From: Candidatus Woesearchaeota archaeon
GTDB taxonomy: Archaea > Nanobdellota > Nanobdellia > Woesearchaeales > JABGXB01
Assembly: GCA_018675975.1 (NCBI GenBank)
Contig: JABGXB010000003.1
Location: forward strand, 66,181-130,180
Direction: 5' to 3'
DNA: 64,000 nt
In this document: piece by piece, positions 35,881 to 56,550 of the stretch
How the letters are laid out: each line of letters begins with the position of its first letter
Position numbering within the stretch: the first letter of the stretch is position 1
Notes under the pieces: generated by a model
What the model was told of the DNA's origin: nothing
The model's input: only the letters and a program-made list of their open reading frames with translations
Databases searched by the model: none
Program-made: the position numbers and the translations under genes

Positions 35881-35919
35881 TTTAATTAAAGTTAATAATA
35901 ATAGTTTATAAATTTTACA

Positions 35920-36068
35920 TTAACATCGCGATTAAGAGAAGTTTTTCAAACGCAGTGAGAAAAATTTGGGAAAATTCCTGCAAGGGATTTTCCTCTTAAT
36001 CACTGTTAAACTCCCTGAACGGAACGAAGTGGAGTGAGAGTGCAACGTGGTCGACCGAAGGGAGAAGT
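35920..36068 (+). repeat. Structured non-coding element A (multi-arm fold)
   Basis: Noticeably richer in G and C than its surroundings, with no ORF. Pairing seen directly: TTAACA (35920-35925) with TGTTAA (36004-36009); GATTAAGA (35930-35937) with TCTTAATC (35994-36001); inside these, TTTTTC/GAAAAA (35942-35947 with 35959-35964) capped by ACGCAGT, and GGAAAATTCC/GGGATTTTCC (35969-35978 with 35984-35993) around loop TGCAA. A second domain is closed by CTCCCT/AGGGAG (36011-36016 with 36059-36064) and contains ACGAAGT. AC-GNA-GT mini-hairpins and TGCAA loops also occur in the tandem units at 36859-37467, so the two look related in design though not in sequence. Confidence 0.5.
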
Positions 36069-36074
36069 TAGTGC

Positions 36075-36809
36075 TCAAGAATTCAATGAAATGAATTTCT
36101 TAATTTGCGGAATTACTTGTTGAATGTTAAGTTCATGGCCAGTTTTTGGGATTTTTTTGACTTTATAATTTTGTTTAAGAAGTAAAAAGTCTCTTTTAGT
36201 TTTGTTAAATTCATCTTCACTTCCTTGTAAAATTAGAACATGTTCAGCTTTGCTTTTAGGAATGATGTCTCTTTTATTATATTTCATAAGATCAATATGA
36301 TAGCCATATTTTATGGGCAGTCTTCGATTTGGCAACAATTTTCCTTTTTGAAAACTTTTCAGATCAGGTAAAATCCCTAACTTTTTCCAAGCCTTTGAAA
36401 AATCACTTTCATGTTCGAAAAACCCATCATATCCTATGAGAATTAGATTTTTCACTTTCTTTTTTGAAGAGAAAATCAAAGCAACTATTGAACCATGAGA
36501 CCAGCCAACAATCGCAACATCATTCCAATTTTTGTCTGAAAATTTAACTTTACAATAATCTAATAAGCTATTCAAATCAGAAACCATTTCAGAAGTTTTC
36601 AAGTTTTCAATAGAACCAGAACTTTTTCCTGTATTTCTATAATCAAAAGAGACTACAAAGAAATCTTTTGAAATATTTCTCACAAATTCCAGATTATGAA
36701 GATCATCCTTAGATTCTCCAAAACCAACACAATAAATAACTGGAATCTTATTTCTTACGCCATGAACTTGAAATTCTATAAAATTTTGATTTGGTAACTC
36801 TAACTTCAT
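36075..36809 (-). CDS. Alpha/beta hydrolase, compositionally foreign
   Basis: 244 aa, alpha/beta-hydrolase fold. Nucleophile elbow GWSHGS with Ser104; oxyanion/early strand IPVIYCVGFGES; YRNTGKSSG turn; likely catalytic Asp near LILQGSEDEF and His in KTGHELN. Probably an esterase or peptidase-like enzyme of the BAAT/serine aminopeptidase type; substrate unknown. By eye its GC and codon use are higher than almost every neighbour (more G- and C-ending codons), and it lies between structured element A and the 300-bp tandem units, with a tyrosine recombinase beyond. This suggests recent acquisition as part of a mobile unit. Confidence 0.82.
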   Translation of the reverse strand: MKLELPNQNFIEFQVHGVRNKIPVIYCVGFGESKDDLHNLEFVRNISKDFFVVSFDYRNTGKSSGSIENLKTSEMVSDLNSLLDYCKVKFSDKNWNDVAIVGWSHGSIVALIFSSKKKVKNLILIGYDGFFEHESDFSKAWKKLGILPDLKSFQKGKLLPNRRLPIKYGYHIDLMKYNKRDIIPKSKAEHVLILQGSEDEFNKTKRDFLLLKQNYKVKKIPKTGHELNIQQVIPQIKKFISLNS

Positions 36810-36858
36810 AATAACAAATTATGAGAGCAGATTAATAAAACTTACTTCTTGAACACTA

Positions 36859-37158
36859 ATTGAGTTTAACATACGGGTTTAAAGATGTTTAATTTTTTGA
36901 GAGAGGAACGAATGAAATGAGTGACATCGAAAAAATTAAATATGGGCGGAGACTGCAAGTCGGAGCCTTTAAACCCGTGATAAATTAGCGAGTGCAACGA
37001 GCGATAGTCGCCCCAATTTCATTTTCTAAAAAAATAAACTGAAACATAATTGAAATAAGTTTATCTATGTTCCTATAGGAAAAATAAAACTTAAAATAAA
37101 AAATTACTAAAAAAATAATTTAATTAAATAAAAAATTAAATTTTATTTCAAGGGGGCG
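36859..37158 (+). repeat. 300-bp structured tandem unit, copy 1
   Basis: Repeats with copy 2 at an offset of exactly 300 bp; over 36871-37120 only three bases differ. Fold read from the sequence: outer stem CGGGTTTAAA (36874-36883) with TTTAAACCCG (36968-36977); a long arm TTTAATTTTTT/AAAAAATTAAA (36888-36898 with 36930-36940); a short arm closed by GGC/GCC with loop TGCAA (36945-36967); a mini-arm around loop TGCAA (36988-37002); and a long-range pairing TCGCCCC with GGGGCGA (37008-37014 with 37153-37159). No ORF. Sheared G.A pairs are frequent in the arms. Confidence 0.7.
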
Positions 37159-37467
37159 ATTGAATTTATCATACGGGTTTAAAGATGTTTAATTTTTTGA
37201 GAGAGGAACGAATGAAATGAGTGACATCGAAAAAATTAAATATGGGCGAAGACTGCAAGTCGAAGCCTTTAAACCCGTGATAAATTAGCGAGTGCAACGA
37301 GCGGTAGTCGCCCCAATTTCATTTTCTAAAAAAATAAACTGAAACATAATTGAAATAAGTTTATCTATGTTCCTATAGGAAAAATAAAACTTAAAATAAA
37401 AAATTACTAAAAAAATAATTGATTAAAAATAATAATTTTTATTTCAAGGGGGCGATTGAATTTATCA
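37159..37467 (+). repeat. 300-bp structured tandem unit, copy 2, plus terminal 13-bp core
   Basis: Copy 2 covers 37159-37454 and is followed by a last 13-bp ATTGAATTTATCA (37455-37467). The same core begins copy 2 (37159) and, slightly altered (ATTGAGTTTAACA), copy 1 (36859). Differences from copy 1 are G to A at 37249 and 37263 (two sides of the same internal loop) and A to G at 37304. The outer stem is longer here: AATTTATCA-TA-CGGGTTTAAA pairs with TTTAAACCCG-TGATAAATT except for a two-base bulge. Confidence 0.7.
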
Positions 37468-37469
37468 CC

Positions 37470-37502
37470 TATTAAATGAAGTTTTTTTAAGTTCATTTAA
37501 TA
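37470..37502. repeat. 11-bp inverted repeat upstream of the recombinase
   Basis: TATTAAATGAA (37470-37480) and TTCATTTAATA (37492-37502) are perfect inverted arms separated by 11 nt (GTTTTTTTAAG). It lies just past the tandem units and about 105 bp before the recombinase start. Arm length equals that of tyrosine-recombinase core sites, but the spacer is longer than the usual 6-8, so a transcription stem is equally possible. Confidence 0.4.
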
Positions 37503-42795: not shown

Positions 42796-45700
42796 TTTTT
42801 AAATTTCTTTTTATAACCTCTGTTAATTCTTTTATTAATATTAATTTTATCAGAATTAATTTTAAAACGTATTATTATTAAAATCACTAAAACCAAAATA
42901 AATAATTTCCAACCAAAATTAAAATCATTAGATTTGTTTATTTCTAATTGAGATTCATTTTTTATTTTATTTTCTAAACTAATATTTAAAATATCTTCCT
43001 TATTTTCATTTGATTCAATTATTAATTCCTCTTCATTAAATTTAATTTCATTATTCACATTAATTTTAATACATTCACTTATATTAAAAGTATGTTTAAC
43101 ATCATAAAATCCATAACTTCTAACTAATATAGTATAAGTTCCAACATTGTCTAAATTAAAATTCTCTATTAATGAAAAATCGGAAATAGATTTATTTCTA
43201 TACATTACTTTTTTTAAAATTAAATTATCATTATAAATATCATTTCCATCATAAACAAAATATTTAGCTGAATATAAATTATTACTATTAATGCCTTCGA
43301 CAATTAAATTAATAGGCTCATCAACACATACACTTTTGATATAAACAGCCATGTTTTTAACTATACTTCCCGCTCGAGAACCGCCGCCACCACTAGAAGA
43401 AACACTAGGACTTGCTTGAATACCTAATACTGCTGAGTATCTTAAATTTTCTACTTTTATAATTGAACCTTGATCAGTACAAGTAACACCAGAAATAGTA
43501 ACACCAGTACTATTACCAATACAAGTATCAAAATCAATTTCATTACTACCATCACAATTAGAACTTATTTGATCAATTGAACTAATTTCTTCATTTTTAA
43601 CACATAAACCAACAAAACTATTATCATCAAGATATAAAGTTTTATTATAACTATTTTGTAATTGTCCAGAAAGATTTACTAAAATTGAATTTGATGTTTT
43701 GCTAATTATAGTTTGATTTAAATCAAAATTACTAGATGAAAAATTATGACTAAAATTAATAATTAAATCAGACTCATCGTAAAATAATAGTTTCTGAACA
43801 TTTAAAAATGAACCCACAGTAGAATTCCCACCAACAGTAATATTTAATGTAGTAATACCAGAAGTTACAACATTACTCTCATTATAAAGAAGAGTATCTA
43901 AAGCATCTATTACCCCATCACCATCTCCATCAGTATTATTTACATAAAAATTAATTAAAATTGAATCATTTAAATTCCCAAGAGTATCATTTGCATAAGC
44001 AGTTATATTATAATAACCATTAGATAAATTAGTTAAATCATAAGTATAATTCCACTCATTACTAATATTTGTTGCTTGCAGCCAAGAAATTTGACCACTT
44101 GAATTTGTTATATTAAAATAAACTGTATCAATATCAGAATATGTATCATTAGCAGTTATATTAATTATTAATGAATCCGAAACACTTTCACCCTCACTAG
44201 GATTATTAAAACCAACTAAAGGAGTAGTATTATCTACAATAAAATTAATTGAAATTGAATTATTTAAATTTCCAACAGTATCATTTGCATAAACTGTGAT
44301 ATTATAATAACCACTAGGCAAGCTAGTTAAATCATAAGTATAATTCCATTCCTCACTAATATTAGTTGATTGAAGCCAAGCAATTTGATCACTTGAATTA
44401 GTAATATTAAAATAAACTGTGTCAACACCAGAAATACTGTCATTAACAGTTACATTAATTATTAATGAATTTGAAACAATATCATCATCACTAGGATTAT
44501 TAAAACCCACTAAAGGAACAACATTATCAATTGAAAAACTAACAGTATCACTTCCAATATTATTAGAAGTATCATTTGCCCAAATCGTAACATTATGTTG
44601 ACCTTCACTCCAAGTAACTAAAGTTATATTTGCACAACTCGCTAAACTATTATTAACAGACATAGTATCATTACTATACCAACAACTATCTACTCCAACT
44701 GCATCAGTAACAGTAAAATTAATATCTAAATTAGTATCAGTTGAAAAACTATTATCATTAGGAATATTAATTGTAATAGTCGGACTATAAATATCTCCTA
44801 ACAAATTTGCAAATCCAAAACCCAATAGAAAAGGATAACCATCATTAATTGATGGATCAATATGCCAAAAATCTAAATTAGCAGAATCATTATTAGGATT
44901 ATTTAAAAAATCCCATGCTGTTGTTAAACCCACAGTTAATAGATCTGTAAATGTCTCAATATTTTTCATATCACTAGTAATTTTACCTGTTGCACAATTA
45001 TTAGAATCAGTAGTTACTCCTGAAGTTTGATTATCCCAAAAATTATTATCACAACTACCACCAGAATCTTGACCCATAAAACCATCATCACCAGTAGTTC
45101 CAGTTGAATAAGAATTTTCAATAACTGAACTTATTTGTTTGTAGCCCACTAAACCACCAGTTGAACTTGTAGCTGAAACATTCCCCCTTGCAAAAGAATT
45201 ATTTACAATTGCACTAGATTGCATAAAACCTACTAAACCTCCTATTGAACTGCCAGATGAAGTCACATTACCTAATGCATATGAAGTAGATATAGTTGCA
45301 GAAGTACTAATACCAACTAAACCACCTGTAGTTGAAGATCCAGTTACATTACCAATCGCATAGGAATTTTTAATATAACCTTGATAAATTTCACCAGCTA
45401 AACCCCCAACTCGAGAATTAGTACTTACAACATTACCAGTAGCATAACTATATTCAACCTTTCCTCCGTCAGTATAACCAATTAAACTTCCAATATAAGC
45501 AGGATTTCCTCTATAACCATATGCATCAACTGAAGAATAAGAATGATTAATTGTTCCAGTATTATGACCAACTAAACCACCAATAAAATAATTCCCCTCA
45601 ATATATCCGGTCGAAAATGAATTATTAATAGTTCCCCCCCAATTTGCACCAGCAAGACCTCCAGTTCTTATACTACCATTAATAGTAAAATTAACTAAAC

Positions 45701-54195: not shown

Positions 54196-56550
54196 TTAAA
54201 TACCGTCATAAAATTGTTTAAATTTATTTAAATTATATAAAACATCTTCGCCATCTTGAACAGGTATATCCTTTTCATGATTATCTAAAACATCCCAAGT
54301 TTTATCTTCATCAAAACCCTTTTCAATCAATCCACCAGCAGACAAATATACATCATCTAAAGGACTTTCAACTATACTTTTAGAATCTAAGCCACTATTT
54401 AAATCTTGCTCCAAATTTAATTTAAAAGTACCATCCATAATTGCATCTCTCATTTCAGGAAATACTTGAGCTACAAGACTTAAAGAATACATTGAATCAT
54501 CTCCGGATCCATTAACACTTCCACCCAACCAAATTTGTAAAACATCTTTCGGTAATTTATACGCTTTCGTTGAACAAACAAATTCATATACTTCAGATAA
54601 TGAAACTTTATTTTTTAAAACACTCTCAAATTGTTTTTGAAATATTTCTTCTTCATCAATCGCATAACTATAACTTTCACCACAAAATTCTTTTAAAACA
54701 TCTTCACTATATAAACCATTTTCACCGTCCCCATGACAAGCTTTAATACGTGCATTTAATGTATCAAAAGGAATACTATTTTCAACAAGAGATCTTTCAT
54801 GTATTGCATATATATTTGGAAGCGTAAACATTTGCATTTCATCATTTTCATCAGGAATTGTATCCTTGTTAAGACTTTTTTTTTTACTTTCATATAAATT
54901 TCTTTCTTTAATTACATTTCTAACATATGTTAAAATTTCATTTCTTTGTTTAGGATACCTAGATATTAAAATTGAAACTAAACTTGATGCATTCGGATCC
55001 CCTTTATAACGATCTTTTTCTGCAAATTTAATACGTGGAAGTTTCAAAAAATCTGCATCTGAATCTAAAAATTTTAATTCTTTTAATAAATTTAAACTCA
55101 CTCCTTGATTTAAATATAAATTTAAAATATCTTTTTCTTTTTCAACAAATTGTTTATAATCACTAAATAATTGTTCTAATTTTCCTTTTTTATCTCTATA
55201 AAGTTTTTTTGAGAATATACTTTCACCCAAGTAATACCCATCAGTAAATTTTAATTTTTTAGATAAATTATTTGAAAAACGTATAAAATCCATATCAAAA
55301 TTATCATCAAAAGAAACAAGTAAATATAAATCTCTTGCAATTACTTTAGAACTTAAGAGTTCATCTAAAGAATTTACTTTATCGATATTAGTTATATTAT
55401 AATTTTTTGTTGGATCTAAATCTGTTGAATGAGTTTTTTTTGTTTGTCTAAGATTTAATTTTTTTGATTCACCTAATTTTTGTTCTAAATTCTTATCTGC
55501 ATCAATATTCTTATCTACATTTGTATCTGGTTCACTTTCACCTATATTTAATTTTCTTTTAACTTCATTTAAAATTTTACCTTCATGTTGTTTAAAGAAT
55601 CTAACAATCACATCCAAATGATATTTAATTACTCCATCTTCTTTAAAATGAGGAACTCCTTTTTTTTTAAACACTTTTTTTAAAAGACTTTTTGCTAAAA
55701 AAAAAGATCCAGAATGTTTTAATATATCACCAACTTCATTTAATGTAAAACTTATTTTTGATAAATCAACTTCTTTTTTGAAATTATCACAATCATAAAT
55801 TTCATCTGATGAATCTAATGGTTTTGGAATTTCTACAATAGATGGAGGTTCAAGAATATCAGAAGAAGATTCAACTTTAATTGGAGTTGGAATAATAGAT
55901 TGAGGCTCAAGAACATCAGAAGATTCAACTGTAATTGGAGTTGAAATAATAGACACTGTTTTTGAAACATCAGAAGAACTAACTAATGCTTCTAATTTAG
56001 GTTCAACTGGTTTAATATAATGTTTAGATTCTAAAACAGGTTCAATTTTTATAGATATTTTACTTTGATTAAATAATTTGAAAGGTTCAGCAATTTGAGT
56101 TAAAGGTTTTTTCTCTATATTAAAATTTAATAAATTACTTCCCATTATTAAATTCGATAAACCATATACAGGTTCATTTGCTTTTGAATCATATGATCGA
56201 AATGATGAAAAATTAAAATCAGAATTACCTTCCTTTTTTGATAATTTAACTTTCAAATCAGATTTTTTAATTTCTTTTTTTTTAATTTTATGATCTTCAA
56301 TAATAACTTGAGCAGCTCCCACAATTTCAGGAATATTTGATTTTAAATTTTCAACAATCATAGCTAATTCAATTTCATCTACATCATTTGTAAAAAATGG
56401 ATCTAAATCAAAATTATTTATATCAGCACAATCTAAAATATCTAATAATTCACTTTTAGAAAAACAAGTATTTAATTCAGCTCCATATTTTTTAAATATA
56501 CTGACCCAACCTCTTTTATTTGCTAGACTGTTATCACTTAATATTCCCAC
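54196..56550 (-). CDS. Sigma-coupled protein with an array of HTH-like modules
   Basis: 784 aa, starts at GTG 56550 (leaderless from a TATA box). N-terminal helical domain (1-90); a Ser/Pro/Glu-rich linker with two 22-residue repeats (about 205-247: SSDVLEPQSIIPTPI, SSDILEPPSIVEIPK); then repeated modules resembling MerR/excisionase helix-turn-helix domains: 267-320 (FTLNEVGDILKHSG...DGVIKYHLDVIVRFF), 484-543, 575-625 (FTLPNIYAIHERS...NGLYSEDVLKEF), 648-706 (VSLSEVYEFVCST...SMYSLSLVAQVF) and 733-781. Each has an opening L-x-E/N-[VI] helix, a late gly/asp-rich wing and a Y-S/H-x-D/S-V ending. The module assignment is mine and needs structural confirmation. The direct junction with the sigma ATG suggests an anti-sigma, activator or scaffold. 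Confidence 0.65.
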   Translation of the reverse strand: MGILSDNSLANKRGWVSIFKKYGAELNTCFSKSELLDILDCADINNFDLDPFFTNDVDEIELAMIVENLKSNIPEIVGAAQVIIEDHKIKKKEIKKSDLKVKLSKKEGNSDFNFSSFRSYDSKANEPVYGLSNLIMGSNLLNFNIEKKPLTQIAEPFKLFNQSKISIKIEPVLESKHYIKPVEPKLEALVSSSDVSKTVSIISTPITVESSDVLEPQSIIPTPIKVESSSDILEPPSIVEIPKPLDSSDEIYDCDNFKKEVDLSKISFTLNEVGDILKHSGSFFLAKSLLKKVFKKKGVPHFKEDGVIKYHLDVIVRFFKQHEGKILNEVKRKLNIGESEPDTNVDKNIDADKNLEQKLGESKKLNLRQTKKTHSTDLDPTKNYNITNIDKVNSLDELLSSKVIARDLYLLVSFDDNFDMDFIRFSNNLSKKLKFTDGYYLGESIFSKKLYRDKKGKLEQLFSDYKQFVEKEKDILNLYLNQGVSLNLLKELKFLDSDADFLKLPRIKFAEKDRYKGDPNASSLVSILISRYPKQRNEILTYVRNVIKERNLYESKKKSLNKDTIPDENDEMQMFTLPNIYAIHERSLVENSIPFDTLNARIKACHGDGENGLYSEDVLKEFCGESYSYAIDEEEIFQKQFESVLKNKVSLSEVYEFVCSTKAYKLPKDVLQIWLGGSVNGSGDDSMYSLSLVAQVFPEMRDAIMDGTFKLNLEQDLNSGLDSKSIVESPLDDVYLSAGGLIEKGFDEDKTWDVLDNHEKDIPVQDGEDVLYNLNKFKQFYDGI

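Follow-up and report, generated by a model that had tools for sequence, protein, structure and literature searches.

What kind of element forms the two nearly identical non-coding units that lie side by side in a contig of a Woesearchaeota archaeon? The window, which is the whole stretch of 64,000 nucleotides that was analysed, has at 36859-37467 a tandem repeat with a period of 300 bp, 2.0 copies and 96% matches (TRF), and both units lack a long ORF, as the initial annotation had described. That annotation counted three differences in 250 bases, which is right when the junction is excluded (36949, 36963 and 37004), while the first 250 columns of the comparison of unit 1 with unit 2 contain five differences when the junction positions 36864 and 36869 are included. 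It also placed G36949A and G36963A face to face, and they are indeed the middle bases of a 3x3 loop in the hairpin 36944-36967; the pairing with alternating G.A pairs at 36905-36925 is visible in the sequence. The actual unit is an integron-like cassette rather than a tandem RNA, and the initial annotation covered just the tip of its site. The locus is very probably an integron-like cassette array, which has an attI-like site and an IntI-related recombinase without the I2 domain.

As read from the sequence, the locus is a three-cassette array (~35924-37465), formed by a hydrolase cassette and two non-coding units, that adjoins its own recombinase. The array ends at the attI-like hairpin, which is located 140 bp upstream of the tyrosine recombinase gene. 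The features are listed in Table 1, where bit scores refer to the covariance model R1, derived from seven hand-aligned sites in which the interior of hairpin 1 was trimmed by hand.

Table 1. Features of the array in window coordinates; a vertical bar within a motif marks the junction.
Feature	Position	Strand	Evidence and details
att site, hydrolase cassette	35913-36012	+	R1 68.3 bits, fold; left junction TTTTACATTAA|CA; stem GATTAAGAG/CTCTTAATC; hairpins 35939-35967 and 35968-35993; arm TGTTAAACT 36004-36012
Hydrolase cassette	~35924-36869		closing junction AGTTTAACA, exact match to arm
Inverted stem around hydrolase cargo	36070-36857	+	36070-36081 AGTGCTCAAGAA with 36846-36857 TTCTTGAACACT
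Cargo gene, alpha/beta hydrolase	36075-36809	-	PF00561, E 9.6e-12
Junction hydrolase cassette/unit 1	36859-36871	+	ATTGAGTTTAA|CA
att site, unit 1	36859-36986	+	R1 87.4 bits; stem 36874-36883 with 36968-36977; hairpin 1 36885-36943; hairpin 2 36944-36967 (GGA/GGA loop); arm TGATAAATT 36978-36986
Cassette unit 1, non-coding	36870-37169	+	
Unit 1 GCA-loop hairpin GCGAGTGCAACGAGCG and enclosing stem GTCGCCCC	36988-37014	+	partner of enclosing stem GGGGGCGAT 37152-37160
Unit 2 equivalents of GCA-loop hairpin and enclosing stem	37288-37314		partner 37448-37456
att site, unit 2	37159-37286	+	R1 90.6 bits; GAA/GAA loop 37244-37267; arm TGATAAATT 37278-37286
Cassette unit 2, non-coding, first cassette of array	37170-37465	+	
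attI-like site	37455-37502	+	ATTGAATTTAT|CA; hairpin CCTATTAAATGAA 37468-37480 paired with TTCATTTAATA 37492-37502; conserved upstream of recombinase in other genomes
Tyrosine recombinase, 271 aa	37607-38422	+	IntI-related, without IntI-specific insertion

The recombinase is the single PF00589 (tyrosine recombinase) protein of the genome. Among 30 array-linked recombinases the catalytic residues are invariant (30/30) and most of the proteins end in (S/N)PLD; an SPLD-type tail is also found in IntI, and the tails of XerC and XerD are HPRA-like. Every array-linked recombinase is recognised by two profiles, that of archaeal XerA and that of integron integrases. The window protein scores 194.5 bits with TIGR02249, which is below the cut-off of 265, and 222 with NF040815, which is just above the cut-off of 220, and its best match among solved structures is P. 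abyssi XerA. The IntI-specific insertion (I2/patch III, ~45 residues) is absent, the region having 83-89 residues against 129-132 in IntI, and the alignment of the window protein to IntI4 skips it. In the tree, one clade (99/98) unites the array recombinases with IntI and a Bacteroidota group, to the exclusion of XerA and XerC/D; XerA is represented by two sequences only, both fragments from printed alignments. IntI, which is a long branch, falls within the archaeal set in the best tree (95/89), and the AU test does not reject monophyly of the archaeal proteins (p 0.376). One of the recombinases has the same sequence as the protein of a named Candidatus Woesearchaeota genome, by which the order is identified. 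In some genomes there is an additional recombinase copy, which is more distant.

These data bear on the possibility that the cassettes exploit XerA and dif as IMEX-like elements such as CTX phage do, with the recombinase being XerA and the attI-like site being dif. This is unlikely: the single recombinase of the genome, the structure match and the NF040815 score agree with it, but the position of the array recombinases with IntI in the tree, the second recombinase of some genomes and the arrays of cargo genes beside the recombinase, which differ from the dif layout, speak against it, although a double duty is still compatible with them. XerA of P. abyssi and T. acidophilum is a tyrosine recombinase of similar length with sequence similarity to the array proteins, but its task is the resolution of chromosome dimers at a single double-stranded site, and it has no cassette array. 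The integration of CTX phage and IMEX by XerCD has in common with the arrays a folded single-stranded substrate and tandem integrations; unlike the arrays, these elements use the XerCD of the host, have no recombinase of their own and carry no cassettes of host genes. The recombinase of the window scores as archaeal XerA too, and it may have a second job.

Integrons have been reported in archaea, including Nanoarchaeota (Ghaly et al. 2022; PMC9668308), so the locus could be a canonical archaeal integron, in which an IntI with the additional domain uses standard attC sites. The shared plan of integrase, attI and folded-site cassettes, the GTT core and the C-terminal SPLD fit this explanation, which is nonetheless very improbable in view of the missing insertion, of the TIGR02249 score below the cut-off and of the lack of a credible R1 match in 80 loci, ~22 of them bacterial IntI loci. 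Because the additional domain of IntI was searched for and is absent, the array is placed outside the canonical integron family. The archaeal integrons of that study have an IntI with this domain and bacterial-type attC sites detected by HattCI/IntegronFinder, in both of which they differ from the arrays, and only six IntI were found there, compared with the widespread system described here.

With bacterial integrons the arrays share an attI-like site beside the recombinase gene, tandem cassettes with mixed and often small cargo, one folded strand with matching arms similar to R''/R', and the crossover G|TT. They differ from them in the lack of the I2/patch III insertion, the Y-shaped site, the bulge of 2-3 nt on the junction arm, an extra hairpin domain, a stem that joins the two cassette ends, an attI-like site that can fold as a hairpin and a mixed cargo orientation, which is looser than in bacteria. 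The extrahelical bases of bacterial attC are on the R''-L'' arm, whereas the regular unpaired bases here are on the R' arm. As far as sequence comparison goes, the system is integron-like, and its novelty lies in the architecture of the site and in a recombinase that is related to IntI but has no I2 domain. A full-text literature search for Woesearchaeota with integron, outside whose scope were most subscription journals and all bioRxiv preprints, returned no paper, and integron searches that require IntI and bacterial attC may overlook such arrays.

On the recombinase strand, each site begins with the junction ATTKNNNNTAA|CA, followed by a bulge of 2-3 nt, mostly TC, TA or TT, on the junction (R') arm, a stem of ~8-10 bp, hairpin 1, hairpin 2, the closing stem, the 9-nt arm, a G/A-rich hairpin domain and a stem that is paired just before the next junction. 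The site folds on one DNA strand as a Y (three-way junction), and in 79 of 86 sites the predicted stability of this folding + strand exceeds that of the complementary strand. The foot of hairpin 1 (AAGTTT/AAATTT), close to the three-way junction, holds a G.T pair (A2 pair columns 34/139) that 85 of 89 sites retain although neighbouring pairs vary, and this pair is a possible strand mark. Hairpin 2 frequently ends in a GCA loop and sometimes contains a GNA/GNA loop. The stem enclosing the cassette reaches 8 bp or more in 48 of the 52 cassettes compared, with a mean of 12.0 bp against 6.5 bp in mismatched cassettes.

The pairing is conserved among homologues. In the seven hand-aligned sites, 93% of the cells are paired and 17 pairs are double-changed, against 2-6 in slid controls; in the alignment of 89 sites fitted to R1, 90.3% of the cells are paired and 573 cells are double-changed, with at most 117 in slid versions. 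The selection on a folded nucleic acid that the initial annotation had proposed is strongly supported by this covariation, and the finding of homologues with conserved pairing leaves that proposal standing. Among 86 homologous sites, 17 contain a GNA/GNA hairpin with the layout of the units, which in 16 of them has a GCA loop, and the motif is regarded as real because such hairpins number 0/86 on the opposite strand and 0-1 in shuffled sets. The joint change of the two middle bases, on which the proposal was built, is weaker, as mixed loops occur (GGA/GAA in three sites, GAA/GGA in two, GAA/GTA in two and GGA/GCA in one). No Rfam family matches at the gathering threshold, the best sub-threshold match having 22.3 vs 71.4 bits.

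The 9-nt arm of each site matches the far end of its own cassette. Among 58 neighbouring site pairs, the arm and its own right-hand junction are identical in 28 and match at 8-9 of 9 positions in 43, and shuffled pairings (10,000 shuffles) give means of 1.5 and 5.3 and maxima of 7 and 16, respectively. The mismatches of the 43 well-matched pairs are confined to position 1 and position 9, the latter being the base beyond the crossover, which is contributed by the next cassette; in the comparison with the left junction they are spread over positions 1-5. An exception is G042, whose arm is closer to the left junction than to its own right junction. The arm is likewise the reverse complement of the unit end in the genome of the window and in G136, a member of another family of the same order, and the left flank is just roughly so. 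By analogy, this matching is the logic of the R''/R' boxes of integron attC, and each circle would have its own matched pair. The R''/R' boxes outside the core do not all contain RYYYAAC.

The junctions are also seen as exact breaks of similarity. Units 1 and 2 become identical at the CA that follows TAA/TAT, which on the other strand reads G|TT, the integron crossover. L172 and L185, from different families, have 124 bp in common at 96% that end exactly at GCGTATAACA, past which an attI-like site follows in one and an unrelated cassette site in the other, so that the point of divergence coincides with the predicted crossover. Most arrays have TAACA|YCTATTA, with a hairpin after it, at a distance of 101-167 bp upstream of the recombinase gene, in line with what an attI should show.

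The initial annotation had allowed for RNA or single-stranded DNA, and the second is by far the better fit, because the arm matches the other end of the cassette, up to several kb off, past cargo on either strand, and because the sites precede a tyrosine recombinase gene on a single strand, the folding strand being the equivalent of the attC bottom strand. A structured non-coding RNA or cis-regulatory element, with which the covariation alone would be compatible, is for the same reason of the arm match, and in view of the exact junction breaks and the lack of an Rfam family, highly improbable. An IS200/IS605-type non-autonomous element with an extended guide, which would account for a guide-like arm that pairs with flank and end and for insertion 3' to the target copy, is scarcely credible given the conserved link to a tyrosine recombinase and an attI-like site, and was dropped as the PF01797 Y1 (TnpA) transposase is absent from the genome.

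Of the 371 genomes of the phylum, 103 have R1 sites (E <= 0.001), all of them within the same order or the same class, as do 60 of the 145 genomes that represent the order (E <= 1), with E-values from a shortened calibration and relatives that are MAG-derived. On 24 contigs, 60 sites are within 16 kb of a recombinase and 60/60 are upstream on the same strand, as counted by eye from the site and recombinase tables; site and recombinase are farther apart on three contigs (G130, G140 and G038). In G136 the layout recurs upstream of a homologous recombinase with another 9-nt arm, and a second element of this genome encloses a GNAT gene. A scan of genome contigs with a single query gave no match, and the alignment query gave matches. 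Several contigs of relatives (L111, L112, L113, L119 and others) terminate within a few hundred bp of the recombinase on its upstream side. This would be expected of assemblies broken at repeated cassette sites, and surveys would undercount arrays. A scan of viral contigs with a 15-nt core pattern gave 88 matches, estimated as no more than chance, and was not used, and one R1 match in Staphylococcus (27.7 bits, E 0.005, with a match on both strands) was taken as chance.

In the fetched array loci 61 closed cassettes are delimited. As 11 of them are without an ORF of at least 50 aa, the two empty units of the window are not odd. The longest ORF, on which these orientation counts rest, is opposite to the recombinase in 34 cassettes and runs with it in 16, and 11 have none. 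The cargo includes hydrolases, GNAT, peptidase S51, acyltransferase, an aminoacyl-tRNA editing domain, NUDIX, a class I tRNA synthetase domain, Fic, GmrSD, a sodium/bile acid symporter, deaminase, epimerase, LemA and nucleotidyltransferases. ORFs of 184 aa in seven loci were considered as a common gene and rejected, the proteins being unrelated.

Tiny archaea of the Woesearchaeota group and their relatives appear to swap genes via folded single-stranded DNA sites, with an IntI-related enzyme that lacks the domain presumed necessary in integron integrases. Such sites are carried by 76 of the 243 high-quality genomes in the phylum, which suggests that the capture of gene cassettes is widespread among DPANN archaea with small genomes. 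The cassettes, with or without cargo genes, are presumably still mobile and could be circularised; in the excised circle, for which GATTGAATTTATCA|TACGGG is a candidate junction, the parts would stack as a single long rod capped by the Y. The Y most likely forms on one DNA strand while this strand is exposed in replication or transfer, and the recombinase, which probably acts on these sites with single-stranded DNA as substrate, would bind the two arms around the bulge and exchange strands at AA|CA (G|TT on the other strand) with the attI-like hairpin or another cassette site. The greater predicted stability of the + strand would give the strand choice. In bacteria, strand discrimination depends on extrahelical bases (PMC2727003), which are read by the I2 domain (PMC4792948). 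With the unpaired bases on the other arm and I2 missing, the discriminator in the arrays must be something else, if the inference is right, and candidates are the bulge, the G.T pair, the sheared G.A pairs or the Y itself. Mixed cargo orientation, the bulge on the junction arm, the fitting of the 89-site alignment to R1, the G042 arm and the XerA score of the recombinase count against the integron-like reading.

The origin of I2 has been presented as a chicken-and-egg paradox, with either attC without I2 or I2 without attC (Escudero et al. 2016; PMC4792948). An IntI relative without I2 beside folded-site arrays would represent, if true, either the intermediate that is missing or a solution reached independently, and would make the paradox testable in vitro. 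It is tentatively suggested, as one possibility, that the arrays are a living pre-I2 stage, with an IntI-lineage recombinase on folded cassette sites from which bacterial IntI was later derived, or else a sister lineage in which the same problem was solved by a Y-shaped site. The Bacteroidota tyrosine recombinases of the IntI/archaeal clade (L195-L207 and L210, mostly 305-490 aa as called) have SPLD-type tails, and the IntI insertion is absent from the two that were aligned. Their loci show no obvious arrays in a repeat scan and no match to R1, which describes the archaeal site shape only.

Other repeats and cassettes are present in the same genome. In the window, a 294-bp tandem repeat (43932-44517, 86% match) lies within an ORF of 1086 aa and corresponds to repeated domains of a predicted surface protein, and 54-bp tandem repeats at 55837-55977 (~2 copies) are possibly coding. 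The genome (1.03 Mb, 3 contigs) has partial unit copies elsewhere, whose left flanks are mutually similar. A second cluster of two sites with one closed cassette (G000:C2:34564-35432; L188:2565-3433) has no recombinase on the fetched stretch, which makes it CALIN-like, as in bacteria. A lone cassette (G000:C1:122011-122833; L009:2012-2833), with no recombinase within the fetched stretch, contains an ORF of 214 aa on the + strand, and its far end CAAATAACA, which is followed by the attI-like ACTATTAAATA, is an exact match to the arm.
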